Assembly (NCBI RefSeq): GCF_011397635.1
Contig: NC_064756.1
Location: 14,670,317 to 14,734,316 of the forward strand
Reading direction: 5' to 3'
DNA length: 64,000 nucleotides
Source: Epinephelus fuscoguttatus
Lineage: Eukaryota > Chordata > Actinopteri > Perciformes > Serranidae
Numbering within the stretch: position 1 is the stretch's first letter; every line of letters starts with the position of its first letter. The notes beneath the pieces are model-generated. The model searched no databases. It saw only the letters and a list, made by a program, of their open reading frames with translations, and was not told where the DNA came from. The translations under genes were made by a program, and so were the position numbers. Below are positions 908-32,087 of the stretch, piece after piece.

Positions 908-1016
908 ATGACTGAGAGGAGGAGGAGAAAGACTCCTGATAAGGATGCTGTAGAGCACATTATTCGCGGAGAAGACAAACCCTTCCTAGAAGGAAGATTT
1001 ATTAACACATTTAAAG
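908..1016 (+). CDS. Exon 1 of SET-recombinase gene (pre-SET segment)
   Basis: An ATG at 908 opens a frame of 36 codons that ends in phase 1 at a consensus donor (AAAG|GTAAG at 1017). The peptide starts MTERRRRKTPDKDAVEHI and continues with GEDKPFLEGRFINTFK, which resembles the short segment just N-terminal to the SET core in KMT5A-like fish proteins. The first residues are basic and could act as a nuclear localisation signal. The first base of the next exon completes a Gly that starts the GRGVF motif, so the phase match confirms the junction. The start codon is chosen because it is the first in-frame ATG of the exon; a further 5' exon cannot be excluded. Confidence 0.72.
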
Positions 1017-2225
1017 GTAAGTTTTTCATCCAGTATACCATTGTTTGTTTCTATTAGTGTAGTCACCTTACAGTTGTAGTTAAAGATACTCTGTTATGTA
1101 TTTGTTAATGAAAGTGTTAAATAGCTCTATATTCTGACAGTGATCACAGTGAGCCCATTTACATGCACACTAATAAACTGATCATTATCTGATTTCTGGA
1201 GTTAACTGAATACTCAAGTCGTGTAAACAGCATAATGCAGTATGTTTTATCAGATAACAGGCATTATCAGATTATGAAAAATCAGACACTCTTTGATTTT
1301 TGCCCAATAATCCATTTATTCAGTGCATGTATACCGTTTAACCCTCATCCTACCGACATATTTTATATACATGGACTACCGACTGGGGTCCTGGGGACCC
1401 CAAGAATAAACTACTTTAAGAAACAACTATCATAGCAAATTGTTAACTTGTTTCTTCTCAAAACTTTACTAGTGATGTAGTACATGTCATCTGAGGGGAA
1501 AAAAACAAAGATTATTATTATTTTAGGAAAGTTAGTTAATTTGCATTTGGTTTCTTTAAACCATTAATGTCCACAATGGAATTTTATAATTTCCTTTACA
1601 GCACATAAAGTACTAACTAAACTGAGTACAAGTCCATTGAAATTTTTCAAATTGGTCAAAGAATGAGGCTACAGTGCAAGTTTTTAACACTGTGCAGAGC
1701 TTATAGACATATTATATTGTATTCCTGTGGGCTAAAATGAGTGACTAGTGACTAAATACAGTATGATACAGAAATGTCTGTATCTCAAAATCTACATTAG
1801 TTATATCAAATGCTTGGTACCAATGGATTCAGAACAACTACATTTTCAACAACATTTGCTTTGATCCTGGCTAAATCTGATATTTAGCATGTTAAATGAA
1901 TGTCAAACTTATTTTAGTGTTTTTTTTTCATCAAGTCAGCTTTGTCTACCAATTAAGGCATGGTAAATATGTGAAATCAAAAATTTTGATTTTGTCATGT
2001 GTAGCCACATGTCTTGACAGTTTCCACAGCAAATTTTGTTTTCACCTTTAACAGAAAACATTCTGTAGGGCCTTTTCTTAACATACTAAATATAATTAAA
2101 TATAGTCATAGTTGTTAACAGGTTAAAAAAAAAGACAGATTCTGTGTCTGAGTCTAAATTAGGACTCATGGCAACCATGAACTCAGTAAATAGTTCCATC
2201 TATTAGAAGTACATTGGCAGAATTA

Positions 2226-3850
2226 CAGTACAGGCCAAAAGTTTGGACACACCTTCTCATTCAATGCGTTTTCTTTATTTTCATGACTATTTACATTGTA
2301 GATTCTCACTGAAGGCATCAAAACTATGAATGAACACATGTGGAGTTATGTACTTAACAAAAAGGTGAAATAACTGAAAACATTTTTTATATTCTAGTTT
2401 CTTCAAAATAGCCACCCTTTGCTCTGATTACATCTTTGCACACTCTTGGCATTCTCTCAATGAGCTTCACGAGGTAGTCACCTGAAATGGTTTTCCAACA
2501 GTCTTGAAGGAGTTCCCAGAGGTGTTTAGCACTTGTTGGCCCCTTTGCCTTCACTCTGCGGTCCAGCTCACCCCAAACCATCTCGATTGGGTTCAGGTCC
2601 GGTGACTGTGGAGGCCAGGTCATCTGCCGCAGCACTCCATCACTCTCCTTCTTGGTCAAATAGCCCTTACACAGCCTGGAGGTGTGTTTGGGGTCATTGT
2701 CCTGTTGAAAAATAAATGATCGTCCAACTAAACGCAAACCGGATGGGATGGCATGTCGCTGCAGGATGCTGTGGTAGCCATGCTGGTTCAGTGTGCCTTC
2801 AATTTTGAATAAATCCCCAACAGTGTCACCAGCAAAACACCCCACACCATCACACCTCCTCCTCCATGCTTCACAGTGGGAACCAGGCATGTGGAATCCA
2901 TCCGTTCACCTTTTCTGCGTCTCACAAAGACACGGCGGTTGGAACCAAAGATCTCAAATTTGGACTCATCAGACCAAGGCACAGATTTCCACTGGTCTAA
3001 TGTCCATTCCTTGTGTTTCTTGGCCCAAACAAATCTCTTCTGCTTGTTGCCTCTCCTTAGCAGTGGTTTCCTAGCAGCTATTTGACCATGAGGCCTGATT
3101 CGTGCAGTCTCCTCTTAACAGTTGTTCTAGAGATGGGTCTGCTGCTAGAACTCTGTGTGGCATTTATCTGGTCTCTGATCTGAGCTGCTGTTAACTTGTG
3201 ATTTCTGAGGCTGGTGACTCGGATGAACTTATCCTCAGAAGCAGAGGTGACTCTTGGTCTTCCTTTCCTGGGTCGGTCCTCATGTGTGCCAGTTTCGTTG
3301 TAGCGCTTGATGGTTTTTGCGACTCCACTTGGGGACACATTTAAAGTTTTTGCAATTTTCCAGACTGACTGACCTTCATTTCTTAAAGTAATGATGGCCA
3401 CTCGTTTTTCTTTAGTTAGCTGATTGGTTCTTGCCATAATATGAGTTTTAACAGTTGTCCAATAGGGCTGTCGGCTGTGTATTAACCTGACTTCTGCACA
3501 ACACAACTGATGGTCCCAACCCCATTGATAAAGCAAGAAATTCCATTAATTAACCCTGATAAGGCACACCTGTGAAGTGGAAACCATTTCAGGTGACTAC
3601 CTCTTGAAGCTCATGGAGAGAATGCCAAGAGTGTGCAAAGCAGTAATCAGAGCAAAGGGTGGCTATTTTGAAGAAACTAGAATATAAAACATGTTTTCAG
3701 TTATTTCACCTTTTTTTGTTAAGTACATAACTCCACATGTGTTCATTCATAGTTTTGATGCCTTCAGTGAGAATCTACAATGTAAATAGTCATGAAAATA
3801 AAGAAAACGCATTGAATGAGAAGGTGTGTCCAAACTTTTGGCCTGTACTG
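2226..3850 (-). mobile_element. Tc1-like transposon copy A
   Basis: The element begins CAGTACAGGCCAAAAGTTTG and ends with its inverted complement, flanked by TA on both sides. TIRs are long (about 200 bp or more), including internal copies of the CACCTTCTCATTCAATG motif. It holds a broken transposase on the minus strand. It is nearly identical to copies B and C, so all three belong to one recently active family. Confidence 0.93.
2387..3437 (-). pseudogene. Tc1 transposase, frameshifted (copy A)
   Basis: The minus-strand reading starts MARTNQLTKEKR at 3437 with the paired helix-turn-helix DNA-binding region (VWKIAKTLNVSPSGVAKTI, then the GRPR hook), and ends GGYFEETRI at 2387. DDE motifs are visible: WSDESKFEIF, FQQDNDPKHT and NPIEMVWGELD, with DD34E spacing. 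The frame breaks near 3090, where an A is missing relative to copy C, and again near 2845, where the C-run is one base shorter than in copy C. The intact family protein would be about 340-350 residues. It cannot encode a full transposase as written. Confidence 0.92.
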
Positions 3851-4888
3851 TACGTGCTTTTGACTGGGGTCCCCTGGGACCCCAATACACAAGTATTTTT
3901 AAAAATCACTAATCAAAACAGAAACAGTAAACAATCATGACATCATTAGGAACAAGTTGACTGACAAAGTGAGATATGACAAAAAGTATACCTCTGGGGA
4001 GGGTTAATCTGGTTTCTCTTGTTTTATAAATCTGTGCATAAGCAAAATGCAAAAGCGTATGTAGATAAAACGCGAGAAGAACGCGAGCAGAAGCAATTAG
4101 TTGAAATTTTTCTATGCGGTATGCAGTTTCATCGTATCATTAAAGAATAGACAACTAAGTGTTTTGCTAGTTAAGATAGTTTTAGTGATTAAAAATAGAT
4201 CAACAATATATTTGCAAGGATAAAGTACCAGACAGATGTCGTTTCGATGGTTACCATGCGTAGAGAGCCTAGCGGAGCTGTCATGAACAGCACAGTGAGT
4301 CCCCACACTGATACTGTAAGTTATACGCGGAAGGTAGCATCTACGTTCATGCAACTATGCCCGGCACAAGCAGAATGTTTCTCCCCATCCCCTTGCCTCT
4401 TTTTTGCACATGCTCTGAAATGAACAACACACACAGACCATCATCTGCTTGTGGAAAGAAATCCAACTATTGACTAAATCATGTAAACGTTTTTTTTCTG
4501 TTAACACCATACAGAAGTACATGCAAACGTGTTGAATCAGATTATTAACATTACTAGAATATTCACAGATATCAGATTATTGTGTGCATGTAAATGGGCT
4601 CACTGATAGTGTTTGGTCTGTGACACAGATCCCTCAGTCACACTGCTTTGCAGTAAACAGAGTTTTAGATTCTCCTTCTCCCCTACTGCGTCTATCTAAT
4701 CAGGTGAGAAAGAGTAGTGCTGCGATTTGATAAAAATGCGATTGCGATTATGGTGGACAATATCGCGATTACGATTACAATATAATTACAATAAAATGTA
4801 ATGAATAAATGGTATCATGAGTCTTTTGCTTGATTCAGTGTTTCCTTCCCTACATTATATTAGGGGGGCACTGACCTGACCTGACATA

Positions 4889-6505
4889 CAGTACAGGCCA
4901 AAAGTTTGGACACACCTTCTCATTCAATGCGTTTTCTTTATTTTCATGACTATTTACATTGTAGATTCTCACTGAAGGCATCAAAACTATGAATGAACAC
5001 ATGTGGAGTTATGTACTTAACAAAAAAAGCTGAAATAACTGAAAACATGTTTTATATTCTAGTTTCTTCAAAGTAGCCACCCTTTGCTCTGATTACTGCT
5101 TTGCACACTCTTGGCATTCTCTCCATGAGCTTCAAGAGGTAGTCACCTGAAATGGTTTTCCAACAGTCTTGAAGGAGTTCCCAGAGGTGTTTAGCACTTG
5201 TTGGCCTTTGCCTTCACTCTACGGTCCAGCTCACCCCAAACCATCTCGATTGGGTTCAGGTCCGGTGACTGTGGAGGCCAGGTCATCTGCCGCAGCACTC
5301 CATCACTCTCCTTCTTGGTCAAATAGCCCTTACACAGCCTGGAGGTGTGTTTGGGGTCATTGTCCTGTTGAAAAATAAATGATCGTCCAACTAAACGCAA
5401 ACCGGATGGGATGGCATGTCGCTGCAGGATGCTGTGGTAGCCATGCTGGTTCAGTGTGCCTTCAATTTTGAATAAATCCCCAACAGTGTCACCAGCAAAA
5501 CACCATCACACCTCCTCCTCCATGCTTCACACTGGGAACCAGGCATGTGGAATCCATCCGTTCACCTTTTCTGCGTCTCACAAAGACACGGCAGTTGGAA
5601 CCAAAGACCTCAAATTTGGACTCATCAGACCAAAGCACAGATTTCCACTGGTCTAATGTCCATTCCTTGTGTTTCTTGGCCCAAACAAATCTCTTCTGCT
5701 TGTTGCCTCTCCTTAGCAGTGGTTTCCTAGCAGCTATTTGACCATGAAGGCCTGATTCGCAGTCTCCTCTTAACAGTTGTTCTAGAGATGGGTCTGCTGC
5801 TAGAACTCTGTGTGGCATTCATCTGGTCTCTGATCTGAGCTGCTGTTAACTTGCCATTTCTGAGGCTGGTGACTCGGATGAACTTATCCTCAGAAGCAGA
5901 GGTGACTCTTGGTCTTCCTTTCCTGGGTCGGTCCTCACGTGTGCCAGTTTCGTTGTAGCGCTTGATGGTTTTTGCGACTCCACTTGGGGACACATTTAAA
6001 GTTTTTGCAATTTTCCAGACTGACTGACCTTCATTTCTTAAAGTAATGATGGCCACTCGTTTTTCTTTAGTTAGCTGATTGGTTCTTGCCATAATATGAA
6101 TTTTAACAGTTGTCCAATAGGGCTGTCGGCTGTGTATTAACCTGACTTCTGCACAACACAACTGATGGTCCCAACCCCATTGATAAAGCAAGAAATTCCA
6201 CTAATTAACCCTGATAAGGCACACCTGTGAAGTGGAAACCATTTCAGGTGACTACCTCTTGAAGCTCATGGAGAGAATGCCAAGAGTGTGCAAAGCAGTA
6301 ATCAGAGCAAAGGGTGGCTATTTTGAAGAAACTAGAATATAAAACATGTTTTCAGTTATTTCACCTTTTTTTGTTAAATACATAACTCCACATGTGTTCA
6401 TTCATAGTTTTGATGCCTTCAGTGAGAATCTACAATGTAAATAGTCATGAAAATAAAGAAAATGCATTGAATGAGAAGGTGTGTCCAAACTTTTGGCCTG
6501 TACTG
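4889..6505 (-). mobile_element. Tc1-like transposon copy B
   Basis: It has the same TIRs as copy A, starting CAGTACAGGCC at 4889 and ending at 6505, with TA on both sides. It carries a disrupted minus-strand transposase. Confidence 0.93.
5052..6092 (-). pseudogene. Tc1 transposase, frameshifted (copy B)
   Basis: The reading runs from MARTNQLTKEKR at 6092 to the GGYF..ETRI end at 5052. The helix-turn-helix region and first catalytic Asp (WSDESKFEVFG) are readable, as are FQQDNDPKHT and NPIEMVWGELD, but in different frames. Deletions relative to copy C include bases lost near 5757, near 5500 (the segment after GGGGVMV is shortened) and near 5205. It is about 1041 bp against 1050 in copy C. Confidence 0.9.
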
Positions 6506-6943
6506 TAGTTATTGTTATGGACAGACAGTGTGTCAATGACCATCAACAGACTGAGCACAGTCAAACATGCTGCTCACACAGCAGCGCAGCACGGCACTGT
6601 ACACACAGTGGAGCGAGCCTGTGTTGCGTTCAGGCGTTGTCACGTAAATGACAAATTCCAGCACGCCATAGCACAACACAGCAGCATGTCAAGTGGGCCG
6701 AACCCGATCAAAATTGCTCAATATTTCATTTGTTATGAAGTCCATGATTTCCCTGTGACACTTACAAATGTTTGCTTAACTGTGCTTGGATGTTGTTTTA
6801 TGAGGCTCTGGCAGCTTTCAGTTGTCTCTTTGTCTTTAACGTTACACGGCTCGGCTTTCTCTCGCATGCTTATTCCTCATTTTCCCTGTGCTGTCTCGAG
6901 TGTTGATATAGATTGGTCATGTTGCCGCGGGGCGGGGCGCTTT

Positions 6944-7250
6944 TAACTTTTAAACTTTTACACAGCATGTCTTTCAGGTACGCGACGTTGGACAGAAAGG
7001 CGTGCTGTATAAAATTTAAAGTTAAATCGCCACGTCCGTCTCAATGCTGATATAGATTGGTCGTGTTGCGCGGGATGTGGCTATTTTAACTTTTAAACTT
7101 TTACACAGCATGTCTTTCAGGCACGGCGACGTTGGACAGAAAGGCGTGCTGTGTAAAATTAAAGTTAAAGTCACTCACGCCCCGTCTCTCAGTGGCGACT
7201 TTAACTTTTACACTTACACAGCATGTCTGTTCAACGTCGCCATACCTGAA
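6944..7250. repeat. Short internal tandem/inverted repeats inside the hAT-like element
   Basis: A segment beginning TTTAAACTTTTACACAGCATG and running to GGCGTGCTGT..AAAGTTAAA occurs at about 6947-7014 and 7092-7170. A third, partial copy in altered order follows to about 7245. Each copy is roughly palindromic (ACAGCATG/CGTGCTGT). The longest reading frames here are chance products of this repeat. Confidence 0.6.
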
Positions 7251-7761
7251 TCCAAAGTTTTGCCATGTAACAGACATTTTTTTTGCCACCAACTCAGGCT
7301 GTTCATGGTCGAGCTCATGCTCTTTTTCAGCGTCTGTGTTGGTCACTGCTGCACGCCGGCTGCACGCGCCAGGATAGCTTGTGGGCGTGATGTCAATAAA
7401 CTCCACACACTACAGGAGAGGCAGTCACGTTCACAGGCACACACGTTAACATTTATTTAGCCTACATTGCAAATCGCAGCCTTTTATGCGGTTATATAAT
7501 CGCACAGCCTGACATCGCGATTGCGATTAGATCAATCGTGCAGCACTATAAGAGAGCGGGCAAAATTATAGAAAGTTATCCCAAACCATCAAACCACTTA
7601 CAGCTGCTTTAACTAATCCTTTAAATCATCTTCAAGTTAAAAAGTGTCATGTTACTATTAATTAACACATTAACATGCAAGTGTAGAGTTTATTATAGAT
7701 AGGATTCAATGTTGATTGTGCAAATAAAAAAATGTTCACCAGATGTACTGCTTGTAATATA

Positions 7762-8829
7762 CAGTATCTCACATAAGTGAGTACACCTCTCTCATTTTTG
7801 AAAATGTTTCATTATATCTTGTCATGTCAACACTATAGAAATGACACTGTGATATAACTTAAAGTAGTCAGTGTACAGCTTGTATAGTAGTATAGATTTA
7901 CCTTCCTCTGAAAATTATGTAAAACACAGCCATCAACATCTAAACAGCTGGCAACATAAGTGAGTACACCCCACAGTGAACATGTCCAAATTGTGCCTAA
8001 AGTGTCAATATTTTGTGTGCCAACCATTATTATCTAGCACTGCCTTAACCCTTTTGGGCATGGGACAGCTGTCTTGGTGCTCTTCACCAAGGTGCCACAC
8101 ATGCTGAAAGAGCACCAAGACAGCTGTCCCTTGCCTACAGTCAAGTATAGTGGTGGCAGCATCATGGTTTGGGGCTGCATGAGTGCTGCCGGCTCTGGGG
8201 AGCTCGGTTCATTTAGGGAAACATGAATTCCAAGCAGAGCATGATCGTCCCTCTTCAGAAACTGAGCTGCAATGCAGTTTTCCAACATGATAATGACCCA
8301 AAACACACCTAGTAGATGACAACTGCCTTGCTGAGGAAGCTGAAGGTGAAGGTGATGGACTGGTGATGGACAAGTATGTATCCAGCCCTAAACTCACCTG
8401 TGCACCTGTGGGCCATCCTCAAGCTGAAGGTGGGGTAGCGCTGTCTTCACATCCATCTGCTCCATGATGTCATCATGGAGGAGTGGGAGAGGATTCCTGA
8501 AGCAACCTGTGAGCTCTGGTGAACTCCATGCCCAAAAGGGTTAAGGCAGTGCTAGATAATAATGGTTGGCACACAAAATATTGACACTTTAGGCACAATT
8601 TGGACATGTTCACTGTGGGGTGTACTCACTTACGTTGCCAGCTGTTTAGATGTTGATGGCTGTGTTCTGAGTAATTTTCAGAGGAAGGTAAATCTATGCT
8701 ACTATACAAGCTGTACACTGACTACTTTAAGTTATATCAAAGTGTCATTTCTATAGTGTTGTTCCATGAAAAGATATAATGAAATATTTGCAGAAATAGG
8801 AGGGGTGTACTCACTTATGTGAGATACTG
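7762..8829. mobile_element. Internally deleted Tc1-like element with long TIRs
   Basis: The ends read CAGTATCTCACATAAGTGAG and its inverted complement, with TA duplications at 7760-7761 and 8830-8831. The TIRs extend about 290 bp, from 7762 to about 8055 and from about 8535 to 8829, ending in a TTAACCCTTTTGGGCATG palindromic segment. Between them are transposase remnants on the + strand: TVKYSGGSIMVWGCMSA around 8140-8190 and HDNDPKHT around 8288-8310. It is a non-autonomous Tc1 derivative of a different family from copies A-C. Confidence 0.88.
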
Positions 8830-9049
8830 TATGTGGGCACCCCATCCAGATAAAACCCACATTTATTTAATAATGTAAACCAATTTCCTACATGCCATAT
8901 ACCCATACATTGTCTTCCTTTACCTCTTAAAATAAGATTTGCTTTCATTGTATGGCTTATATGAACTGATTGTAATTGTAAGTCTTTTCATTTTTTCATT
9001 TTATTCTGGATTGTAGTCATTAACATTTTGTTTTATTATTTATATTATT

Positions 9050-9232
9050 GATGGCTAAATGAAGCCTAATGAAGCATGTTCTTTATTTTCTGAGCCCACT
9101 AGTTGGCACTCATTGCTTAAAGAAAGAGGCTCAAAGAATGGCAATTCAGTGTGCTTTCAACCTTTTGATGAAAAAAAAGCGCCATCTAGTGGGCTCAGAA
9201 AATGCTTCACGAGGCTTCATTTGGCCATCACT
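9050..9232. mobile_element. Short hairpin MITE
   Basis: TGGCTAAATGAAGCC at about 9052 is matched by the inverted GGCTTCATTTGGCCA at about 9230. A second inverted pair, GAGCCCACTAGTTGGC and GCCATCTAGTGGGCTC, lies inside. The roughly 180-bp unit can fold as one imperfect hairpin. Two short overlapping reading frames over it are not genes. Confidence 0.65.
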
Positions 9233-9403
9233 AATTTTTATTAACAGCACTTACTAACTCTGTTTTTTTTTAAGGCGCTTATAAATTGTTGTTGTCGGTC
9301 TTCCTCTCTGTCTTAATGTCTCTTTGAAAAGAAGCCATAAATGAGGTTGGTGGTCTTAGAAGTAGCAGCTTATGTTAATGTTTTCTTTCTTTCTTTTCTT
9401 CAG

Positions 9404-9542
9404 GGAGAGGTGTGTTTACACAGGAATACATCGAACCAAAAAGTTTTGTGGTGGAGTACAGGGGAGTTTTGTCCCTGAGTGTAGGAGCAGATGACAAAAG
9501 CAAATATATATTCGATTTCATGTGGAATGGGAAGCGCTACTG
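9404..9542 (+). CDS. Exon 2: SET domain N-terminal half
   Basis: The acceptor is a polypyrimidine tract ending CAG at 9403, and the donor is TG|GTAAG at 9543. The 139-nt exon enters in phase 1 and leaves in phase 2. The translation starts with GRGVF, the glycine motif of SET domains that helps bind S-adenosylmethionine, followed by FVVEYRG and then FDFMWNGKRY. This order matches KMT5A/SETD8, which monomethylates histone H4 Lys20. The frame is intact with no stop. Substrate specificity cannot be read from sequence alone. Confidence 0.85.
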
Positions 9543-11762: not shown

Positions 11763-11954
11763 CATAGATGCTTCAAAAGAGGATGGAACACTGGGACGAC
11801 TAGTGAATGATGATCACATACAGCCCAACTGTAAAGTCAAAAGAATAATGGTCCAAGGAAAGCCACACTTGTGTCTTTTTGCTGTCAAGGAAATCTTTCC
11901 AGGCGAGGAGATCACATATAACTATGGCGATTCCTCTGGCCATGGCGCTCAATG
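11763..11954 (+). CDS. Exon 3: SET domain C-terminal half, with probable one-base phase error near its end
   Basis: The acceptor is TCACAG at 11762 and the donor is ATG|GTGAG at 11955. The exon reads CIDASKEDGTLGRLVNDD, then QPNC, GKPHLCLFAVKEI and EEITYNYGDSS. These are the core SET motifs: the asparagine motif corresponding to NHSxxxNC, and the ExxxxY/DY motif that forms the pseudoknot and lysine channel. After GDSS the frame reads GHGAQW and leaves in phase 2, whereas every cassette exon downstream is open only in phase 0. Read one base off, the same bases give P-W-R-S-M at exactly the place where KMT5A-like fish proteins have PWR, and the exon then ends in phase 0. A single base is therefore probably missing near 11936. 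Spliced as it stands, translation would stop about ten codons into the next exon. Confidence 0.85.
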
Positions 11955-12062
11955 GTGAGATAAGGGTCTCATGTTCTGTTAATGACAGTGTTAACTATAA
12001 TTTATTTTATACAACAGTTATTTTGAGTAATTTGATTGGTCAAGAGTGGGGCTGGGCGGTAC

Positions 12063-16843: not shown

Positions 16844-17651
16844 TCTTTTGAGGTGAATATGAACATAATTATCGCCTGTCTTTCTTTCTTAAAGACCACT
16901 AAGTGATAGTGCTGCCAGTCAAGTGATTAAACAGTACATTTCCTCTTTACAATTTCAGGCACCGGTGAAGAACAATCTCACCCGAAGTTGAGAGGAAGTG
17001 AGCCAGGCTCAGAAAAGGCAAGTTGTAGTTTGTGCCATCATAGTTAGTTTGCTTTATGTGTCACCTTCAATACAGTAGAATTGGTTTTGGTCTTTAGAAT
17101 TTTATAGTACAAGCTCATTATTCCGGTCTTCCTTCTTCCCTGCTGACTATTAACTGACATTTCTGCCATACTCATGGCCAGTGTTGTAACACAGTGTTTG
17201 CAGAATGAAAATGAATTATTTTAGCTTAAAATAAACTCACATTTGTGCCTGTCATTGACTCAGTCACAGGAGGTGTGCAGCGGTCGTGTGATTTGATGAC
17301 AGAGGTCAGGGCAGCTCCATCAACATTAAAGGATGACATTGTAAGTTGACAGTATTCTTGTAATATCATGATTTTACTTCTAGACATAATACTGTTTTGT
17401 TTGATCTTATGACTGTGCTCAGAAGTCTTCACACTTTTGAATGTTGTACACTACATGTACCTGCCACAGCACAGGACTGTCAGGACAAAGTGTCCTGTAA
17501 GGACAGTAGGAATTGGGTGTGTGTGTGTGGTTATGTCAGAATGTACTTAAGAGGACATTTTCCTAATCAGGCGTTCATGGTTTGTGGTGGGGGTGTGTAT
17601 TAGGCCTTCATGCATTTCTTTATATAATGGGTGTCAGAAGTTGGTGATGTA

Positions 17652-19277: not shown

Positions 19278-19342
19278 TATGTTCAGGGTTTCCATGGTCA
19301 TATTAAACCTGAAAAAGTTGAAGAATATCAAATGATATTCTA

Positions 19343-21021
19343 CAGTCCCTGACAAAAGTCTTGTCGCTTATCCAAGTTGTAGGAACAACAAATAATAACT
19401 TGACTTGTAGTTGATCAATTGGAATCAGAAATAGCTTATATGAAAGGCAAAGGCCTCTAGATTATGCTTATTATACCAAAATAAAGTTGTGTGCCATTCA
19501 CTGAGTTCTATCATTTAATTAGGACAGAAAGGTCAGATCTTGCTTGGACAAAAGTCTTGTCGCATACAAAAATAATGTACTGTAGAAATGATACTTTCTG
19601 TTGAATACACAAACATGCTCCAATAACATCAGAACATAAAGTCATGGTGCCTTGGGAAAAAGAATTAATATCGTGTATGACTCCCATGAGCTTGGAGGAC
19701 TGCATCCATACGTCTCGGCAATGGCTCAAATAACTTATTGATGAAGTCATCTGGAATGGCAAAGAAAGCAGTCTTGCAGGACTCCCAGAGTTCATCAAGA
19801 TTCTTTGGTTTCATCTTCCAAGCCTCCTCCTTCATCTTACCCCAGACATGCTCAATAATGTTCATGTCTGGTGATTGGGCTGGCCAATCCTGGAGCACCT
19901 TGACCTTCTTCACTTTCAGGAACTTTGATGTGGAGGCTGAAGTATGAGAAGGAGCACCATCCTGCTGAAGAATTTGCCCTCTCTTGTGGTTTGGAATGCA
20001 ATGGGCAGCGAGAACCTCTTGATACTTCAGGCTGTTGATGTTGCCATCCACTCTGCAGATCTCTTGCACACCCCATACTGGATGTAACCCTAAACCATGA
20101 TTTTTCCTCCACCAAACTTGACTGCTTTCTGGGTGAATCTTGGGTCCATGCAGGTTCCAACAGGTCTTCTGCAGTATTTGTGGCAATTGGGATGCAGTTC
20201 AATGGATGATTCATCAGAAAAATCAACCTTCTGCCACTTTTCCACTGTCCATCCTTTCTGCAAGCTGTGGGCCTTGGCAAATGCAACACGATTCTTTTGT
20301 TGTCTTCTGTTTAATGCTGGTTTGTGAGCAGTAATTCGGCCATGGAGACCATTGCGTGAGAGAATTCGACAAACTGTTCTGGTAGATACAGGGGTTTCTG
20401 GTGACCAGTTCTGATGTAGCTCTGCTGCAGTTGAAAAAGGGCTGGCCCTGGACTGCCGAAGCAACAAACGGTCCTCTCTAACAGTTGTGTTACAGGGTCT
20501 GCCTGACCTGGGCTTGTCATGAACGTCACCAGTTTCTTCAAATCTTTTTATCCTCTCCACTTGACGTTTGGATACACTGAAGATGTCTGCCACCTCAGCA
20601 GCAGACTTGGTCTTCAGGCTCTTGATGATCAGCACTTTGGTCTGTGGTTGAATCTTTGGCATGTTGTCAGCGGTCAGGTTGCACTTCACATGAAGGTCTG
20701 GTGTGCTGGGGTTCTTGTTAGACACACCAGGGAATGTGTTAATTACAGTATTTGTCACAGGTGGAGCTCTAATCTGTGATTGGTTGAATCGTTTAAAGAC
20801 ACGACAAGACTTTTGTCCAAGCAAAATCTGACCTTTCTGTCCTAATTAAATGATAAAACTCAATGAATGACACTCAACTTTATTTTGGTATAATAAGCAT
20901 AATCTAAAGGTCTTTGCCTTTCATATAAGCTATTTCTGAACCCAATTGATCAACTACAAGTCAGGTTATTATTTGTTGTTCCTACAACTAGGATAAGCGA
21001 CAAGACTTTTGTCAGGGACTG
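19343..21021 (-). mobile_element. Tc1-like transposon copy D, a second family, inserted in array unit 5
   Basis: The TIRs start CAGTCCCTGACAAAAGTCTT and extend over 200 bp with internal repeats of ACAAAAGTCTTGTCGC, flanked by TA. It lies about 65 bp from copy C in the same array unit and represents a different Tc1 family. Confidence 0.94.
19665..20653 (-). pseudogene. Tc1 transposase, disrupted (copy D)
   Basis: The reading begins near MPKIQPQTKVLIIKSLKTK on the minus strand, with a helix-turn-helix (AAEVADIFSVSKRQVERI) and a GRP hook, then FSDESSIELHPN (first Asp). A stop interrupts the frame right after GGGKIMV near 20090, where Trp is expected, and a frameshift follows near the G-run around 20070. 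The other frame continues with ILQQDGAPSH (second Asp) and SPDMNIIEHVWG (Glu), ending at 19665. It is a full-length family relic with two clear disablements. Confidence 0.9.
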
Positions 21022-21108
21022 TAGACCAGGAAAGTCCTGAAAGTATTGAGGTCTTATGTCAGGGTTCCCACGGTCATGGAAAACCTGGAAAAGTCATGGA
21101 ATTTTGTT

Positions 21109-21766
21109 GTTGAGAGAAAGTGAGCCAGGCTCAGAAAAGGCAAGTTGTAGTTTGTGCCATCATAGTTAGTTTGCTTTATGTGTCACCTTCAATACAGTAG
21201 AATTGGTTTTGGTCTTTAGAATTTTATAGTACAAGTTCATTATTCCGGTCTTCATTCTTCCTGCTGACTATTAACTGACATTTCTGCCATACTCATGGCC
21301 AGTGTTGTAACACAGTGTTTGCAGAATGAAAATGAATTATTTTAGCTTAAAATAAACTCACATTTGTGCCTGTCATTGACTCAGTCACAGGAGGTGTGCA
21401 GCGGTCGTGATTTGATGACAGAGGTCAGGGCAGCTCCGTCAACATTGAAGGATGACATTGTAAGTTGACAGTATTCTTGTAATATCATGATTTTACTTCT
21501 AGACATAATACTGTTTTGTTTGATCTTATGACTGTGCTCAGAAGTCTTCACACTTTTGAATGTTGTACACTACATGTACCTGCCACAGCACAGGACTGTC
21601 AGGACAAAGTGTCCTGTAAGGACAGTAGGAATTGGGTGTGTGTGTGTGTGTGGTTATGTCAGAATGTACTTAAGAGGACATTTTCCTAATCAGGCGTTCA
21701 TGGTTTGTAGTGGGGGTGTGTATTAGGCCTTCATGCATTTCTTTATATAATGGGTGTCAGAAGTTG
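21109..21766 (+). repeat. Array unit 6, 5'-deleted (second exon 21385-21459 intact)
   Basis: At about 21108 the intron tract ending ATTTTGTTG of unit 5 joins directly to the second half of the 60-nt exon (TTGAGAGAAAG), so the acceptor and first third of that exon are lost. The 75-nt exon at 21385-21459 is intact. Upstream markers are even-type; markers from the 75-nt exon onward are odd-type, so the unit is a mosaic. Similarity to the array ends at about 21766. Confidence 0.82.
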
Positions 21767-22002
21767 GTACTGCTCAGAAGTCTTCAGAAGTGTTTTTACC
21801 CTATGTTAAGGGTTTCCAACACTGATCATTACTGATATATACCTTATTGGTTCCTCAGTGCCACCATAGTGTTACCTGCTCACTTGTCAGCTGTTTGGAC
21901 CATTGTGAAGATTGCACAGGACCTGTCTCCAGTCTAAAATGGCTTGGTCTCACATGCAAATGTTCGTATTCATGTCACTCAAACAGTTTTTGTTGTTGTT
22001 GT
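21767..22002 (+). other. Junction after the array, nothing recognised
   Basis: Unit similarity stops at about 21766. A short piece near 21772 (CTCAGAAGTCTTCA) repeats a unit motif out of place, suggesting a rearranged array end. No exon with consistent phase was seen. Confidence 0.4.
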
Positions 22003-22010
22003 CTTTAGTG

Positions 22011-23555
22011 TAGCGCTGCACGATATGAGGAGAATCTGCAATGTACTGTAACACTGTTCAGTATTGCGATGACAATAAGGTTGTATATAAGCTCTACAGT
22101 TCCTATGTCGTTCTCTTTTAATAGGTATACTGCTAGACCCCAAAATCGAATAGTCCATGCCCACTGAATAATGAAATAAATGATTTCAAACGTGTTTTTA
22201 TTAAACTCCAACTCCATTTGACATGAATTCTCCTGTAAATCAGCATCATATCAGTTTGACCTGTCGCCTCAGCTACACAGGCTAAATAAACAGTGCTTGA
22301 CTATAAGGTTCATATTTTATACAAGACAACAGCTTTCATTAAAGATCAGTCAGATACAGTCAGGGCTTCACATCTGATGTTATTTTAAGAATCCTCACAT
22401 CCCACTGACCACAAGTCTTTGTGTTGCTAAATACTTCAATAATTAAACCGTCCAATATTAATATACAGTAGACTCTGTATAGTTTATGATGAATATATTC
22501 AGTCTCTGAAAACTAAACTTCACCATCAGTCACACAACATGTTTCTGTTCACAGAATAAACCTTCAGATCAGACAAATACAATCTTAATCTCTAAAATTC
22601 ATCAAAAATTAAAAGTTTATCTAAAACGTCATCTTGTTGAGTTGACATCTGAACCAGTCAGCTGTTAGATCAGGTGAGAGCCAGGCGGTGCAGTCGGTGG
22701 AGAGCAACTGCAGCGCCTGGCTCTAAAAACTGCGGCCGTCAGAGCAAGTCGGGATGAAGTTGGACACAAAACTAACCGGCATGCATTGTGCGCCGATCGC
22801 CGGTGATCGAATCTGCACAGGCCTGGCTCATCTCGAACGAACCTAGTGTTTGGGTGCACACCTAGCTAAAAGCAAAGGTACTGTGGTGTCTGAACACCAT
22901 GACAAAACACCAATCATACAAATCAAATGAGGAGTTGGATTTATTCATTTATTTCATTTGTGTTGATTGTGTCGTTGGTCTTAAATTTCATTTCAAGTGG
23001 CATTAAAAAAGTCTTAAAAAGTCTTAAATTTAACTTGCCTTAAGCTCTAGGAACCCTGTAAAGTATCTTAGCCCTTAAGAGAGCTCCTAAAGTGAAACAG
23101 TGTTAGGAGGAGGAGGAGGAGGCTTCAGAGTTTCAGAGGAGAAAATGGCAGAAATACAAAGAGGAAGGAGAAATATCCTCCAAATGTCCTCAGCATTATC
23201 GACTTGCGACAGTGCACGTCCATAAAACGTCTCTCCTGAATCCAAAATAATTCCAAGTAGCAAAAGTACTGTGCTTGTTCACAACAACTTCTTCATATTT
23301 TCCTTGCTCCTCTCTCCTTCCTACTTGTTCACCTCCAGCAAATGACACATGACCTGACAGGGTAGCTGAGGCTTCATCTAATTAGCCAAACGGTGTCTAG
23401 GGCTTCCCAAATGCTCACATGCTGAGTGTAAATGCATGGCACGAGTATTAACACTGATTTTTCATTCATCGCAGTTCAGGCGGTCTTTACGATGCGTTTA
23501 TCTTGCATGTTCATATCGCGATGACGATGAAAATGCGATTTATCGTGCAGCCCTA
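22011..23555. mobile_element. hAT-like non-autonomous element with perfect 8-bp TSD
   Basis: CTTTAGTG flanks both sides (22003-22010 and 23556-23563). The ends are TAGCGCTGCACGATATG and the inverted ATCGTGCAGCCCTA. The length is 1545 bp. No transposase frame was recognised inside. Its end sequence resembles that of the 4715-7548 element, so they may share a mobilising hAT family. Confidence 0.88.
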
Positions 23556-23634
23556 CTTTAGTGCAGTTTTTATGTTAAATTAAAACAAAAGCATTAGCAC
23601 AACTTGCTAACTTTTCATTTCAATGTGCTTTTAG

Positions 23635-23687
23635 TGTGTTCAAGATCCTGGCACAAATCCTGCTTTTTCAAGAAGAATCAGTCGCTG
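23635..23687 (+). CDS. Possible small exon of the SET-recombinase gene
   Basis: A candidate acceptor (GCTTTTAG) and donor (CTG|GTATGT) bound 53 nt. Read in phase 0 it gives CVQDPGTNPAFSRRI and leaves in phase 2, while the next exon needs phase 0, so either a base is missing or the exon is not real. It lies just after the hAT target duplication and 117 bp before the central exon. Confidence 0.35.
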
Positions 23688-23804
23688 GTATGTTCATTTT
23701 CCTTGGTTCCATTTTAAATTTGATTTTAAAGTGTTCTTGGTGTCGGATTGTGACTTACACAGTAGTAGATTTTGGGGTTAATATAAGCTCTTTTTTCTGC
23801 ATAG

Positions 23805-25887
23805 GATGTTATACCCGATGAGATTGTTTCTGACTCTGCAAGTAGTGATGGCTGTTCCTCTGGTGATCTCTACATAGCTGACACTGCACCAAGGTCTGAT
23901 GGATCCAACTCTGATGAAGATGTTGTAACTGACACTGAACTATTTAGTGATAGTGAGGATCTAAACCTACCACATCGCAAGAGTGGACCAGTTGACTCAC
24001 TTTCTTCCCAGGAAAGGACAAAGACAGTCCTGCAACCTATATCCTGCATGGAACAGGAGGACAGGATGCTTCCAACTCTGGCAGAGTTGGCATTGATGAT
24101 GACTTCATACCTGATAGTGAACCCTGTTCTGATGTTGATGATCCTACTACAAGTAATACCCAGACTCTTCCAAGAAGTACAACAGAGTCTTTTCTACTGA
24201 GACTGCAGCAGCACCACAAGTCTCTTCTTGCACATCAAAAATTACTGCTATGTTTGCAAAACACCTCAGTCTAAAATATCTCACCTTAAAAGCATGAGAA
24301 AGTAGAGCCTGATATTGCTGAAGCATTCTCATTCCCTAAGAACTCAAAAGAGAGAAAGAGGTTACTTGAGAAGTTATGGAACAAAGGTAATTATGAACAT
24401 AATCAAGAAGTAATGCGTAAACATGATGGACAATTGAAACTGAAAAGAAGACCAGGACCATCAAAATCTCGTGAATGCCAAAACGCATGTGCACTGTGCA
24501 TATTGTAAAGGCCTGTTTATCCGTAAAGAGCTGTGGCGCCACTCGCATAGATGCTCAGTCAAAGATGGTCTCAGAAACTGAAGCTATTTCTAAGACCAAA
24601 GCCTTAGTTCTGGCAGATATTGCAGAGTCAACATACAGCCAAGCAGTGTCCCCTGGAGTGTGGAAGATCCTTGGAAAGATGAGGGACGATGAGGTAGCAT
24701 CTGTAGTCCGTAATGACTTCCTCATATTGCAACTGGGCCAGTCTCTCTACAACAAGCATGGGAATGATCCAACAAAATTTGAGTACATCAGAACAAAGGC
24801 TCGGGAAATGGGCAGACTGTTGTTAACCTTAAGGAAAAAATATTCTATATTTAGCTTCGAAGATGCTGTAAAACCAAACAATTTTTACAAAATCGTTGGA
24901 GCTGTCAGAGAAGTTGCTGGATATGATGAAGAGAAGCACTCCTATTGTACACCCAGTCTTGCCCTGAAATTGGGACACTCGCTGAAGAAGATTGGTGACA
25001 TTATTCTCTGCAGGGCCATCGCAGCAGAGAATGAAAATTTGATTAAAGCAGCGGAACGATTTACACAACTCTGCACAAAAGAATGGGCAGGACAAGTCTC
25101 CCACACTGCACTGGCTACTTTGAGCAAGTCAAAGTACAATAAACCATCCACCATACCATTCACAGAGGATGTGCAGCTTTTGCACAAGCACCTGGAGGAA
25201 AAATCGGCTGCCGCCATTGCAGACCTGAAAGAGCATGAGTCTCCACAGGCGTATGCAGAAGTTGCTAGGGTGACACTTGCTCAGATCATCCTCTTTAACA
25301 GACGTCGTGAGAAGTCTCAAAATGTCACTTGAGTCATTCAAGAAAGAGACCAGACTGAGCTCCATAGTGATGTAGCTGCTAGCCTGTCACCGTTTGAACA
25401 AAAGTTAGCCCAGCACTTCAGCAGGGTAGAAATTATCGGCAAAAGAGATAGGAAAGTTGCTGTTTTGTTAAACCCTGAGGCTGTCAGTGCAACAACACTT
25501 CTTGTAGAAAAAGAGATGCATGTAATGTGCATAAGGATAATCCCTTCCTATTTGGACGACCACAGTGCCACTCCATGAGCTACTACAGGGGACAGGACTG
25601 CATAAGAAAGTTTGCAAGTATGTGTGGTGCAAAGAATCCTGATAATCTGAGGTCTACATATCTTCGCAAGCACATTGCAACAGTGTCCCAAATACTCAAC
25701 CTCAAGAACAATGAGCTGGACCAACTGGCCAACTTTTTGGGCCACGATATACGAGTCCACAGAGACTTTTATCGTCTGCCGGAGGCAACTATAGAAATGG
25801 CAAAAATCACAAAGCTTCTACTTGCAATGGAGAAAGGAACTCTTGCAAAATTCCAGGGAAAGTCTCTTGACGAGATTGAGCTTGAAG
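23805..25887 (+). pseudogene. Central exon: acidic region, zinc-finger-like clusters and tyrosine-recombinase-like domain, multiply disrupted
   Basis: The acceptor is CATAG at 23804 and the donor GAAG|GTATGTG at 25888. Reading segments in turn gives the following. First comes an acidic Ser/Asp-rich part (DVIPDEIVSDSAS, DDDFIPDSEP). A first finger follows, NYCYVCKTPQSKIS then HLK..HE, near 24240-24300. Then comes SFPKNSKERKRLLEKL, and a second finger, HCAYCKGLFIRKELWRHSHRC, near 24492-24554. A long helical part occupies 24580-25260. The C-terminal domain has tyrosine-recombinase signatures: box I-like FNRRREKS (25291-25314), LRSTYLRKHIAT (about 25647-25682, compare HxLRHTFAT), and LGHDIRVHRDFYRLP (about 25736-25780) with the Tyr nucleophile. 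Frame changes occur near 24010, 24190, 24288, 24488, 24560 and 25510, with an in-frame TGA at 25330. The family resembles Crypton-type recombinases; mobility or host function is unknown. Confidence 0.8.
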
Positions 25888-26152
25888 GTATGTGGTGGTA
25901 ACAACACTCTTAATGGCTCTTCTCAAAAGAATAATATTTTACTACAGGATCAATTACAAAACAAAGTAGTGAGACTAAAGAAATACAACGGTATTTTGGA
26001 CATTTTTTAAATTGGGAAGATGTAAATTCAGACTTTTTAGAATATAAAAAGTAAATATGCCTCAATGTTTTGGTACATGATACAGAAACATGTCAGGTGT
26101 ACAAACTTGCAGCAACAATTATTTTTATTTTTTGCATCAATCATTTCTTTAG

Positions 26153-26365
26153 ACGAATTGGACCCAGAGCTGGGTGATGGTGATGGTGATGGTGATGACG
26201 ATGGCGATGGCGATGGTGACAACGATGACTACGATGGTGGTGTTGGTGACGATGCCGGTGGTGATGGCGGTGGTGATGACGATGGCGGTGGAGGCAGTGA
26301 AGGCAGTGGAGGCAGTGAAGGCAGTAGAGATGACGGAGATGGAGTTGATGGGTCCGGACTAAGTG
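26153..26365 (+). CDS. 3' exon: Asp/Gly-rich low-complexity linker
   Basis: The acceptor is CTTTAG at 26152 and the donor AGTG|GTATGT at 26366. The phase matches the preceding exon end (phase 1). The translation begins DELDPELGDGDGDG and runs through Asp/Gly and Gly/Ser/Glu repeats to SGLSG, with no stop in 71 codons. The DNA is an imperfect (GATGGY)n repeat, so this linker probably grew by slippage. Antisense frames over it are low-complexity shadows. Confidence 0.7.
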
Positions 26366-26544
26366 GTATGTACTGAATATCTTCCAGTATACATTCATGG
26401 TATATTTTGGAGTAAGGACCATATTCAGATTCCCTTATGTTGCTTTAATACTACCACAAAGTCAGCAAGGTACACAGTCAATAAATCAACAATGATAAGA
26501 GTCAAGTACGTGGCATGGTTTCCGCATTTAAGCTATCAGTGTAT

Positions 26545-26650
26545 GAATGTGGTGTGAATGGGTGAATGATAGACCAGTATTGTAAAGTGCTTTGAGTAGT
26601 TGATAAGACTAGAAAAGGGCTATATAAGTACAGTCCATTTACCATTGATC
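26545..26650 (-). repeat. Fragment of a dispersed fish SINE/LINE-tail repeat
   Basis: The motifs GTAAAGTGCTTTGAGTAG and GGGCTATATAAGTACAG are the well-known tail of a dispersed fish repeat. A longer copy in the other orientation lies at 43010-43290. Confidence 0.6.
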
Positions 26651-26698
26651 ACTTAACTTCAATTGATGCTGAAGGCCTTTTTTGTATTCTTTCACCAG

Positions 26699-26743
26699 AA
26701 AATCAAGAAATGAAGACGCCTGAAGAGGTCACCAGCTCCTCTG
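26699..26743 (+). CDS. Small 3' exon
   Basis: A 45-nt phase-1 exon bounded by CACCAG and TCTG|GTAATG, encoding ENQEMKTPEEVTSSS. The phase and splice sites fit the chain of 3' exons. Function is unknown; it is probably a flexible linker. Confidence 0.6.
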
Positions 26744-26769
26744 GTAATGTGTGGGAAAGCCTTATGGAC

Positions 26770-27357
26770 GGGCTCCACCGGGCACGTCAGCGGCGTGACA
26801 CGTCTGCAGCGCGAGTCCCGTAGCAGCTCGCCACCCTGTTAATCAATTACAGTGGCTCCACTGGCAACGGGAGCGGCACGACAACCCCCGTCTGTCGCGC
26901 GACAACTCTCTATTTTACACGGCTCTTCTATTTTTGTCGCGCTATGCTCCCCTATGCGACCCTCCAGCAGATAAAAACTACATGAAATAGTGTGCTAAAC
27001 GAGCAGAATGTGTTTTTAATTGAATAAACCATTTTCAGAGGTGATATATGATTTTTTTTTTTTTTTCATGCATTTACTCATGTTTATCCGTGACATTGTG
27101 TAAATGTCCGTGGCGGACATTTGAAAGCGAGTAGATGACAAACAGTAGCCTACAGTAAACTTGTAGATAACTCAAATATATGTAATTACTTAGGTGGGAA
27201 ATGCTTTAACATTTCATGCAGCCTCTCGGCTCGGCAAACGGTAAACAACCCCGTTGGCTTCTCTACGTGCCGCTTCCGTACGCGGTCAGTGGAGCCCAAA
27301 TGAATACGCCGCGACGCTACGCTGACGTGACGCTTACGTTTGCAGCCGGTGGAGCCC
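26770..27357. mobile_element. Candidate MITE with GGGCTCCACCGG ends
   Basis: GGGCTCCACCGG at 26770 and its inverted complement CCGGTGGAGCCC at 27346-27357 bound a 588-bp segment that is richer in CpG than its surroundings and contains further GTGGAGCC motifs inside. No clean target duplication was found. It lies in an intron of the gene. Confidence 0.5.
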
Positions 27358-27759
27358 GGCCGTTACATTGCCCTTGCTATATTGCAGGCAGCGTTACTGT
27401 GCTGTATGTATTCTAAACGGGGGGAGAAATCAGATTTAAGTTTTGCTTTTAAACTACCTTTAGCTCTCATAATGGGTGTAAATTATATAAAATGCTGTCA
27501 GGGGCCTGTACTACAAAGGGACTTTAATATACTTAGAATATGTTCAGTGTTATTTGTTAAATTTGCCTCTAATGTTCACTGTTCATATGGATCCAGATTG
27601 TAGTATTATAGTATAAGTTATTAATTGGATATATCATTACTTGTTACTTTGCAGTTAGAATGGAATCAAACTTAAGGAACATAAATATGTTGCTTGTAAT
27701 GGATGTTAAAAAAAAGTTCAGATTGAAGAAGTTTACAATTTTAATTTTTTTTTCCTTAG

Positions 27760-27810
27760 AGAAAAGAAAAAGAATGGAATCTATCCAGGATGTGGCCAAG
27801 AGTTACAAAG
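27760..27810 (+). CDS. Small basic 3' exon
   Basis: A 51-nt exon, acceptor CCTTAG and donor AAAG|GTACAG, phase 1 in and out, encoding EKRKRMESIQDVAKSYK. The KRKR cluster is a plausible nuclear localisation signal. Confidence 0.62.
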
Positions 27811-29019
27811 GTACAGTTTTTATTTGTTTAAAGTTGTAGTAATGATTCAGAGGGTATTCTAGAAATCGGGTTTAGTGAACAGTCTTGAATTTGTTAACCT
27901 TATGATGAGGTAAACTGCATTTTCAGGACCATAGAGGGTGACGACTTAAGCTTTGGATCACTTACTATGTTTGGTGTCTTTCAGACCACATTAGCAACTT
28001 TTTTCTTCAAATAAGCGGCTTACAACATATCAAGTTACTTTTTGGACAGACCTTGCTTCGACTCCTTGAAGGCAGCCTCTGGTATTTCTCAGTGAATGAG
28101 AGCTGATGTGGCCCTCTAACTGTTTGGTGAGACAGACCCAGACAGATACGTGAACATAATGACCAAACTCTGATTCGTTTTTACTCTAAATTAATTACCT
28201 TTACTATCTAAGTTTGATTTTATGCTATCAACATAGACAGTTAATAATAGTGAATTTATTCCAGTGCATGATCATTCCTCCAATTCCAGTACATGATCAT
28301 CTCTATTTTGTAACAGATTTAACCACCTCACCTAGCTATGAGGCGGTGATTGGATTACATGCATTTCTATATTCTTCTTTTTTTTTTTTTTTTTTAAATA
28401 TTTGTTGGTTAGGTGGCCTTTATTAAAGTGGAGAAAATAGGAAATGCAGGGAAGAGAGTAGGAATGACATGAAGTAAATGGTCCGTCCGGTCAGGAATTG
28501 AATCGGGACCTGCTCTTCAGAGCGCTAGCACCCATGTGGTCTGCGACCTAACCACTCGACTACCGGTCACCCCCGCATTTCTGTATTCTAAAAGCTGTCA
28601 CAGTTGACCATCAGCTGTGCCTGTTGACAATGCTGTAACTTTTCCCTTCAAACATTCCACAACAGCTAAGTCCAATCATGAATGCTTACTCTTGACAGAG
28701 TCATGTCATGTCCTCATAAAGTCAGTCCATATCAAAGTTAACACCAAAGCACTACTACCAAATCTTGATTGGATAGAAGTTTTTTTTTTAATCTGGATGG
28801 GGGTGGGATTCATATTGAGTGCATGCATAGTGACGTGCAATTTCATCTAGTCCTTCAAAATTGTAGAGTTGTCTCTCTTCACATCTTCATATAATTTTAG
28901 GGATCAAGTTCAAGTTACAGCTTATGTTCAATAAATAGCATTGTTTCGTTTGGAAAATAAACTTCTCCACAAATGGTTTGTACTAGCTATTCTAACAAAA
29001 TCATGTATTGGTTCTCCAG
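27811..29019 (+). other. Intron between small 3' exons
   Basis: It contains a T-run near 28378-28395 and a SINE-like segment at about 28414-28577. No further exon with fitting phase was identified. Confidence 0.5.
28414..28577 (-). repeat. tRNA-derived SINE-like repeat (variant)
   Basis: The minus strand shows a tRNA-like A-box region (inverted ACCTAACCACTCGACTACCG) and a B-box-like segment (inverted AATTGAATCGGGACC), followed by a body ending in a run next to poly-T. Its layout matches the copies at 51966-52156 and 63352-63503. Confidence 0.6.
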
Positions 29020-29067
29020 GGCAAAAGAAACTGTGTACAACCCAGAGTGTGGTAACCAGCTCCAAAG
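29020..29067 (+). CDS. Small 3' exon
   Basis: A 48-nt exon, acceptor CTCCAG and donor AAAG|GTAGGA, phase 1 in and out, encoding GQKKLCTTQSVVTSSK. It fits the phase chain into the terminal exon. Confidence 0.58.
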
Positions 29068-29369
29068 GTAGGACTCCATCCATCCTTGCAGCTACATTTG
29101 GGGACCAAAATTTCCCCAGCAGTACACTGCACACTGACTGATAAAACAACAACAACAACAACAAAAAAACGAATACTCGACTAAAGAAATCTCAGTCGAC
29201 TACGGGATCTCCAACTATTGATTCGAATATTCGACTATCAGGGGACAATCCTAAACATTTGTAACCTACATTTCAGTGGCTCCGAAGTTATTTCAAGAAA
29301 ATATAAATTAAATTGTAACAGTTATTGTCTTCCCTATCTTAACATATACAATTTTCTTTTGATTGACAG

Positions 29370-29599
29370 AGGTCAAATCGTCAAGAAGATGTGTGAAAAG
29401 GCCATGGAGCAAGGTTGAAGTCAGTGCTGTTATGAAACACTTCAAAATACATATCGCTAAAGGACACCTTGCATCAAAGTTGGAGTGTGAGCAGTGCAAG
29501 CGCGCTGAGCACCCTGTTTTGACAGACAGAACTATTCAAAACATTCGCGATTTTGTGAGGAACAGGGGTGTTATGTTCAAACGAAATGGGGTGAAATAG
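29370..29599 (+). CDS. Terminal exon: Myb/SANT-like C-terminal domain
   Basis: The acceptor is TTGACAG at 29369 and the TAG stop ends at 29599. The phase-1 junction gives EVKSSRRCVKRPWSKVEVSAV, then a helical stretch HFKIHIAKGHL, a CEQCKRAE Cys pair, and IRDFVRNRGVMFKR. The R-P-W-S start, aromatic spacing and basic end resemble the Myb/SANT-like C-terminal segment that, from memory, ends many fish proteins with the recombinase-like domain. It probably binds DNA or chromatin. The frame is intact. The preceding basic residues may add nuclear targeting. Confidence 0.72.
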
Positions 29600-30830: not shown

Positions 30831-30899
30831 TGATAGTCATGACTCACTTTGTGCTAGCTGTGGCTTATGACAGAAATTCAGTCAGGAATATTTTTGCAG

Positions 30900-31800: not shown

Positions 31801-31805
31801 AAACA

Positions 31806-32042: not shown

Positions 32043-32087
<45 letters not shown>

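Follow-up and report, generated by a model that had tools for sequence, protein, structure and literature searches.

Two questions are raised by a 64,000-nucleotide stretch of the Epinephelus fuscoguttatus genome (contig NC_064756.1, here C5, positions 14670317-14734316 of a 1.05 Gb genome; hereafter the window): does one gene join a histone methyltransferase to a transposon-type DNA recombinase, and if so, does that gene belong to the host or to a mobile element? A first-pass annotation had read exons for a KMT5A-like SET domain, zinc-finger-like clusters, a Crypton-type tyrosine recombinase (YR) and a SANT-like tail in order on one strand, and had left the choice between a mobile element and a domesticated host factor open. 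The evidence favors a mobile element, based on exact shared ends, TG junctions, dispersed copies and a deletion in the YR shared by two copies. We estimate a probability of roughly 0.8 that the window carries most of a ~27-38 kb vertebrate DNA transposon that is moved by its YR, encodes one multi-exon SET-zinc-YR-tail protein and works as proposed below. The fusion, as a gene structure, and the mobility are both well supported.

Gene structure and domains of the predicted SET-YR protein

When seven homologues, P0024 of Sparus aurata among them, were mapped onto the window, the exons fell collinearly on the plus strand from an ATG at 908 to a stop codon at 29599 (Table 1), encoding in order a KMT5A-like SET domain, zinc-binding segments, the YR and a small helical tail. 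Together with the splice sites, this mapping confirmed the exon order and compatible phases reported earlier. The splice sites checked are GT-AG, with the exception of the GC donor of a small repeated 60-base exon (exon 4); no donor was found for the zinc exon near 21990 when splice sites were checked. The earlier exon list holds but was incomplete, since a C1/PHD-like zinc exon and the five-fold 60-base exon had to be added to the gene, and the span 908..29599 stands as the coding span but lies inside a larger element that begins 1,640 bases upstream of the first window base and ends at 32046. The other copies of exon 4 start at 13374, 14572, 15766 and 16959 (the last is one base short) in a 1.2-kb tandem array, and a partial sixth copy lies at 21109-21149; in P0024 the corresponding place holds a 24-residue unit repeated in tandem. 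Exon 3 of the window equals that of a copy on C21 minus one base, and the C21 exon continues YNYGDSSWPWRS to its donor in a phase that fits exon 4. Gene models and splice phase suggest that the SET and YR exons share one transcript.

Exons 1 to 3, when joined (908-1016, 9404-9542 and 11763-11954), match Pfam SET with an E-value of 4.4e-18, and the nearest solved structures to this part are those of KMT5A/SETD8 (E 1.6e-17), in keeping with the KMT5A-like assignment by both fold and sequence. In one AlphaFold model, residues 7-151 match SETD8 and residues 414-819 match XerH. KMT5A/SETD8 is the nearest SET protein by sequence as well as fold, and the tyrosine preceding its YG-type glycine is retained in the element; the element's SET domain differs from it in reading N-D for the N-H of its motif and in being embedded in a transposon protein.

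The recombinase motifs that had been noticed are present at ~25,299 to 25,775, and two AlphaFold models agree in giving this part a tyrosine recombinase/topoisomerase IB fold. Both the catalytic fold of the YR superfamily and its R, K, R, H/W, Y boxes are found: across 56 sequences the catalytic residues are retained as R in 51, K in 55, R in 49, H in 50 and Y in 55, the first R being one of three neighboring arginines among which the choice is not fixed. Pfam assigned the recombinase part to no recombinase family, with no DUF3504 or phage-integrase match among seven homologues. The claim of a recombinase exon holds for its motifs but not for a single open frame in the window, which is interrupted by insertions and deletions (indels) and a TGA at 25330; the first catalytic box is also disturbed by indels. 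The zinc-finger-like clusters correspond to two C2H2-like motifs in the main exon plus the C1/PHD-like exon. Matches to C1_1 are weak and below the curated cut-off in four of seven homologues (E 2.2e-5 to 0.014), and the window piece of the zinc exon alone has no Pfam match. As to the tail, its exon is present at 29370-29599 and is helical, with three confident helices in the model of the frog homologue; the SANT/Myb identity was not confirmed, the window tail giving no SANT hit in Pfam at E up to 1.

The same architecture was recovered in other species. A homologue search found 375 proteins, all of them predicted; the counts and taxonomic range given here refer to the best 120, which were scored against pieces of the window by BLAST with E up to 1, and many of which carry no species name. 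SET and the two recombinase pieces, YRN and YRC, were all matched by 67 of the 120, in that order in 66, and the tail was also matched in 46 of the 67; two others matched SET, the zinc piece and YRN without YRC. The named sources include cyprinids, a catfish, loaches, mormyrids, many percomorphs and the frog Ranitomeya variabilis (P0111), so that a search of proteomes for the fusion, as had been advised, finds SET and YR joined in predicted proteins of many teleosts and one frog. Homologues named as isoforms presumably have RNA support. Distances between SET domains correlate with those between YRs (r 0.72, against at most 0.23 in permutations) among the 38 proteins left of the 67 after filters for coverage (59 retained) and then redundancy (38 of the 59); shared species history also contributes to this correlation. 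Viral contigs scanned for the family profile gave 96 pattern stretches, none of them a relative. When viral models were compared by Foldseek, SET proteins mostly ranked near the top and recombinases lower; among the weak structural matches is a SET protein from Symphysodon discus adomavirus 1, a virus of fish.

Within the grouper genome we found at least 70 matches to the YR N-part and at least 57 to SET exon 3, which merged into at least 50 YR loci and at least 54 SET loci, lower bounds because the searches scored limited numbers of candidates. A SET locus lies within 20 kb on the same strand at 25 of the 50 YR loci, compared with 0.10 pairs expected on either strand, and chance neighborhood was rejected on these numbers. 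The nearest SET is upstream in 24 of the 25; the remaining locus belongs to a tandem pair on C17 in which each unit has its own upstream SET. Among ten loci read over 20 kb, SET exons lie upstream of the YR in four. The exon order, which the first-pass annotation had proposed comparing among paralogues, does recur in diverged paralogues of this genome. The C17 pair (C17:13583147-13597335) includes one unit with an open 661-residue recombinase frame that has lost two catalytic arginines, by reading of its translation, and is a candidate for domestication. A second SET-YR subfamily is marked by tails at C14, C12, C1 and C9 that are 96-100% alike, and at C9:45988881-45998608 SET and tail lie ~8.5 kb apart with no YR hit, possibly another derivative that lacks the recombinase.

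Ends, junctions and state of the dispersed copies

Window positions 1-1400 match nine places in the genome at 97-100%, the window among them, and the stretch 29600-31002 likewise has nine matches at 97-100%. Both parts are present in seven copies (C5, C19, C13, C6b, C10, C20 and C1), with lengths of ~27-38 kb and ~33.7 kb for the window copy by arithmetic from the matches. A query with the left end gave nine matches, of which eight start at base 1 and the C10 match at base 7. The left breakpoint is common to the window, C1, C6b, C19 and C20 by BLAST, to which C10 was added by eye, and the right end stops at the same base in all nine copies read. The flanks beyond these ends are unlike one another, as determined by BLAST for the window against four left and three right flanks and by eye for the rest.

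All six left junctions read TG followed by TTGGTTTCTCCGGATTGTGAGGAC, with five TG units at C5 and longer tracts at the other left ends apart from C10. All nine right junctions read GTCCTCATAATCCGCCCATACCTGTA followed by a TG run, which at C19 starts with an extra G. TG/AC tracts cover only ~213 of the 31,900 window bases that remain outside the element, so the presence of TG at every junction is not attributable to chance. The first 13 bases of GTCCTCATAATCCGCCCATACCTGTA and the reverse complement of GGATTGTGAGGAC, which lies near the left terminus, agree at 12 of 13 positions. A further motif, GTCCTCATAATC, has 11 matches within one mismatch near the right end, where 0.22 would be expected in the window, and four matches within two mismatches near the left end. 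The copies on C1 and C10 lack window positions 24471-26582, the core of the YR, with identical edges and different flanks; we infer that this deleted form is a derivative moved by a recombinase supplied from elsewhere.

The YR exons of the seven copies differ by a mean of 0.62% in substitutions, and this low divergence points to recent movement. Compared with the other copies, each has 4-11 frame-changing indels, 57 indels in all by that count. Relative to the column majority, the 2.1-kb YR exon shows 49 substitutions, 38 deletions and 9 insertions (47 indels); 16 of the 38 deletions fall in homopolymer runs of at least 4, where ~6.5% of the bases lie, and 11 fall outside any run. Because indels are nearly as numerous as substitutions and deletions are concentrated in homopolymers, assembly error is the likeliest, though not a proven, source of most frame-breaking indels. 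The majority frame of the seven copies has no stop across 698 codons; given this open frame and the ratio of indels to substitutions, pseudogene decay of the window copy is not favored. The 38 codon-level changes comprise 22 nonsynonymous, 14 synonymous and 2 stops, where neutrality predicts 69, 28 and 3%, and do not clearly indicate selection after the copies had spread.

Several observations weigh against a mobile element that encodes one SET-YR protein. The frame of the window copy is broken, and two stops among the seven copies arose by substitution. The usual H of box II (HxxR) is T in 49 of the 56 sequences. No SET hit lies within 20 kb at 25 of the 50 YR loci, no SET was seen in the ~10 kb upstream of six of the ten loci read, and 51 of the 120 homologues have a YR without SET (44 without the tail and 7 with it). 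A copy designated C6a, with a YR identity of 100%, matches the window only from 21728 onward and has no SET in the stretch read. Some members without SET may never have had it, may have lost it, or may have one that was missed. At the ends, C10 has only TGTG as its left flank, the right TG tract could belong to the element itself, and no empty insertion site was seen for the element copies.

Other repeats accompany the element. Window positions 1-394 are part of a very abundant repeat inside it (1425 first-look candidates, of which the best 40 were scored); this repeat also accompanies six YR-only loci, at a distance of ~7.5 kb upstream, and its match there runs to 394 instead of ~383. A stretch of ~178 bp near the left end is doubled in nine copies, at window positions 402-578 and from ~1,084 to 906 bases upstream of the first window base, with the abundant repeat between them and the second copies matching at 87-92%. 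Outside the element by ~2.9 kb is a 32-bp minisatellite of 36.7 copies (34948-36121). Rfam and tRNA scans of the window gave no useful result.

Table 1 Features of the SET-YR element and its gene in the window.
Feature	Position	Strand	Basis
Mobile element, part inside window (first base, TTGG..., at C5:14668677)	1..32046	+	shared breakpoints
Exon 1: start codon and N-terminus of SET part	908..1016	+	homologue mapping, splice sites
Exon 2: SET domain, first part	9404..9542	+	homologue mapping, splice sites
Exon 3: SET domain core with YNYG	11763..11954	+	homologue mapping, splice sites
Exon 4 (60 bases, GC donor), first copy of a near-identical set of five	12177..12236	+	homologue mapping, splice sites
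Exon encoding zinc-binding residues of C1/PHD-like type; 3' end not fixed	21859..21990	+	homologue mapping
Short linker exon	23635..23687	+	homologue mapping, splice sites
Main exon: acidic linker, two C2H2-like zinc motifs, tyrosine recombinase	23805..25887	+	homologue mapping, AlphaFold, alignments
Acidic low-complexity exon	26153..26365	+	homologue mapping, splice sites
Short exon	26699..26743	+	homologue mapping, splice sites
Short basic exon	27760..27810	+	homologue mapping, splice sites
Short exon	29020..29067	+	homologue mapping, splice sites
Last exon: helical tail and stop codon	29370..29599	+	homologue mapping, splice sites, homologue model
72-bp tandem array, nine copies of GTCCTCATAATC (one mismatched); candidate binding sites	31174..31794	+	
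Right terminus GTCCTCATAATCCGCCCATACCTGTA	32021..32046	+	junctions of copies
TG tract at right junction, read as target site	32047..32087	.	TG abutting 9/9 right and 6/6 left junctions
Nested Tc1-like transposon, outside system	2224..3853	-	DDE_3 and HTH matches
Nested Tc1-like transposon, outside system	4880..6507	-	DDE_3 and HTH matches
Nested Tc1-like transposon, outside system	17957..19114	+	HTH_Tnp_Tc3_2 and DDE_3
Nested Tc1/mariner-like transposon, outside system	19665..20845	-	HTH_Tnp_Tc3_2 and DDE_3

Alternative explanations and proposed mechanism

The copies might instead be a host gene family, that is, a domesticated SET-recombinase factor spread by ordinary duplication and incapable of moving itself. 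Many homologues are indeed annotated as single genes, some with isoforms; the SET-YR units on C17 stand in tandem, and the open frame of one of them, minus two catalytic arginines, is what a domesticated copy would be expected to show. Against duplication stand five left breakpoints that coincide by BLAST and a sixth by eye, nine right ends that stop at the same base beside different flanks, TG abutting all 15 junctions read, and the same recombinase deletion at two unrelated loci, and we consider this explanation improbable. Slightly less probable still is that a SET gene and a recombinase gene are neighbors within one element, encoding separate proteins that gene prediction has misjoined. 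The ~12 kb between the SET exons and the main recombinase exon of the window would suit such an arrangement, as would the occurrence of recombinase-only proteins and loci; against it, exon 3 of C21 is open to its donor with a length that sets the phase of the stop-free exon 4, an intermediate zinc exon is shared, and in distant fishes and a frog the parts follow one another in this order within predicted proteins. That the element is a DIRS or Ngaro-type retroelement is very improbable. Such elements have a tyrosine recombinase and are known from vertebrates (PMC3212892), but the gene here retains introns, and no reverse transcriptase or RNase H was found in seven homologues or in 20 window open reading frames selected from 135, among which assembly indels could hide a broken reverse transcriptase frame.

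For the YR-moved transposon that we prefer, the following working is proposed by analogy with known YR elements (PMC3212892). The protein would comprise, in order, the SET domain, the C1/PHD-like motif, the repeated linker, two C2H2-like motifs, the YR, an acidic stretch and the helical tail. Its zinc motifs and tail may bind the GTCCTCATAATC clusters at both ends, upon which the recombinase, if catalytically active, would join the element ends into a circle with a junction consisting of CCTGTA, TG and TTGGTTTCTCC. This circle would be inserted into TG tracts by crossover within a short TGTG identity. YR sites typically have 11-13-bp inverted arms around a 6-8-bp spacer (PMC3212892), and because the 13-base arms of the element lie further apart than this, its real core may differ. 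The SET domain is conjectured to methylate lysines close to the element, on a histone or elsewhere, which could ease expression, allow escape from silencing or choose target chromatin.

If this is correct, a chromatin writer and a site-specific recombinase travel in one mobile protein, and it becomes testable whether a transposon uses its own histone methylation for insertion or to escape silencing. The element would also provide a recombinase from vertebrates for which the ends are defined and the target, TG repeats, is simple, and would explain the large set of unnamed SET proteins in fish annotation, many of which may be transposon genes. SET genes are carried by region-2 of zebrafish chromosome 4 (PMC11075544), and gibel carp has a male-specific SET gene, setdm (PMC9945428, PMC6211105, PMC8448357); as a lead only, such sex-linked or early-embryo SET genes of carp and zebrafish may be among them. 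We are evenly divided on a broader proposal, namely that the element represents an undescribed class of large vertebrate transposons, distributed from bony-tongued fishes to a frog and recently mobile here, in which the recombinase has a histone methyltransferase of its own and so marks chromatin at the ends or targets as the element enters TG microsatellites.

Comparison with known systems

No description of a SET-tyrosine recombinase fusion was found among titles and the starts of abstracts, a search that took in few subscription journals and had Repbase outside its scope, and none was found in the part consulted of a zebrafish SET gene survey published in 2008 (PMC2200798). Assignment to the Cryptons, as the first-pass annotation had supposed, is possible but uncertain: no Crypton-derived Pfam domain was hit (for DUF3504, in seven homologues), and, against published descriptions of Cryptons, size, extra domains and ends differ. 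The element may overlap with CryptonV, which is known here by name alone and whose V we take to stand for vertebrates. CryptonV is a Crypton group in the Repbase classification (PMC5753468). Cryptons are DNA transposons with a tyrosine recombinase for which a circle has been proposed (PMC3212892). They resemble the element in having the YR as the sole transposition enzyme of their own, in lacking long terminal inverted repeats and in having non-autonomous derivatives; within the 20 window open reading frames, the only other transposase matches were Tc1-like and are read as nested. The element differs in its SET domain, C1/PHD-like motif, helical tail and many introns, as well as in its size and the TG at its junctions. 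According to their description, Cryptons of animals lack both a C-terminal domain and terminal repeats (PMC3212892), whereas the element has its tail exon. Fungal, oomycete and diatom Cryptons have terminal direct repeats of 4-6 bp (PMC3212892); the TGTG or longer TG at both ends of the element may or may not be their counterpart, the target being itself a TG repeat.

Endogenous nimaviruses of crustaceans are likewise large, some bear tyrosine recombinases with C2H2 motifs, and they enter simple repeats (a telomere motif); they differ in their viral gene sets, those inserting into (AT)n use a DDE enzyme, and the part of the source used describes no SET fusion (PMC10871703). An epigenetic enzyme aboard a DNA transposon, with a proposed escape from silencing, is also known from fungal elements that carry TET/JBP dioxygenases, although their target is methylcytosine and they belong to other superfamilies and other hosts (PMC12730594). 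SETMAR of anthropoid primates, a SET domain fused to a mariner transposase that is called inactive, similarly unites a SET methyltransferase and a transposon recombination enzyme in one protein (PMC8704517). In the element described here, a tyrosine recombinase plays that part and dispersed copies carry the fusion, so that it would be a counterpart of SETMAR that travels with its element.

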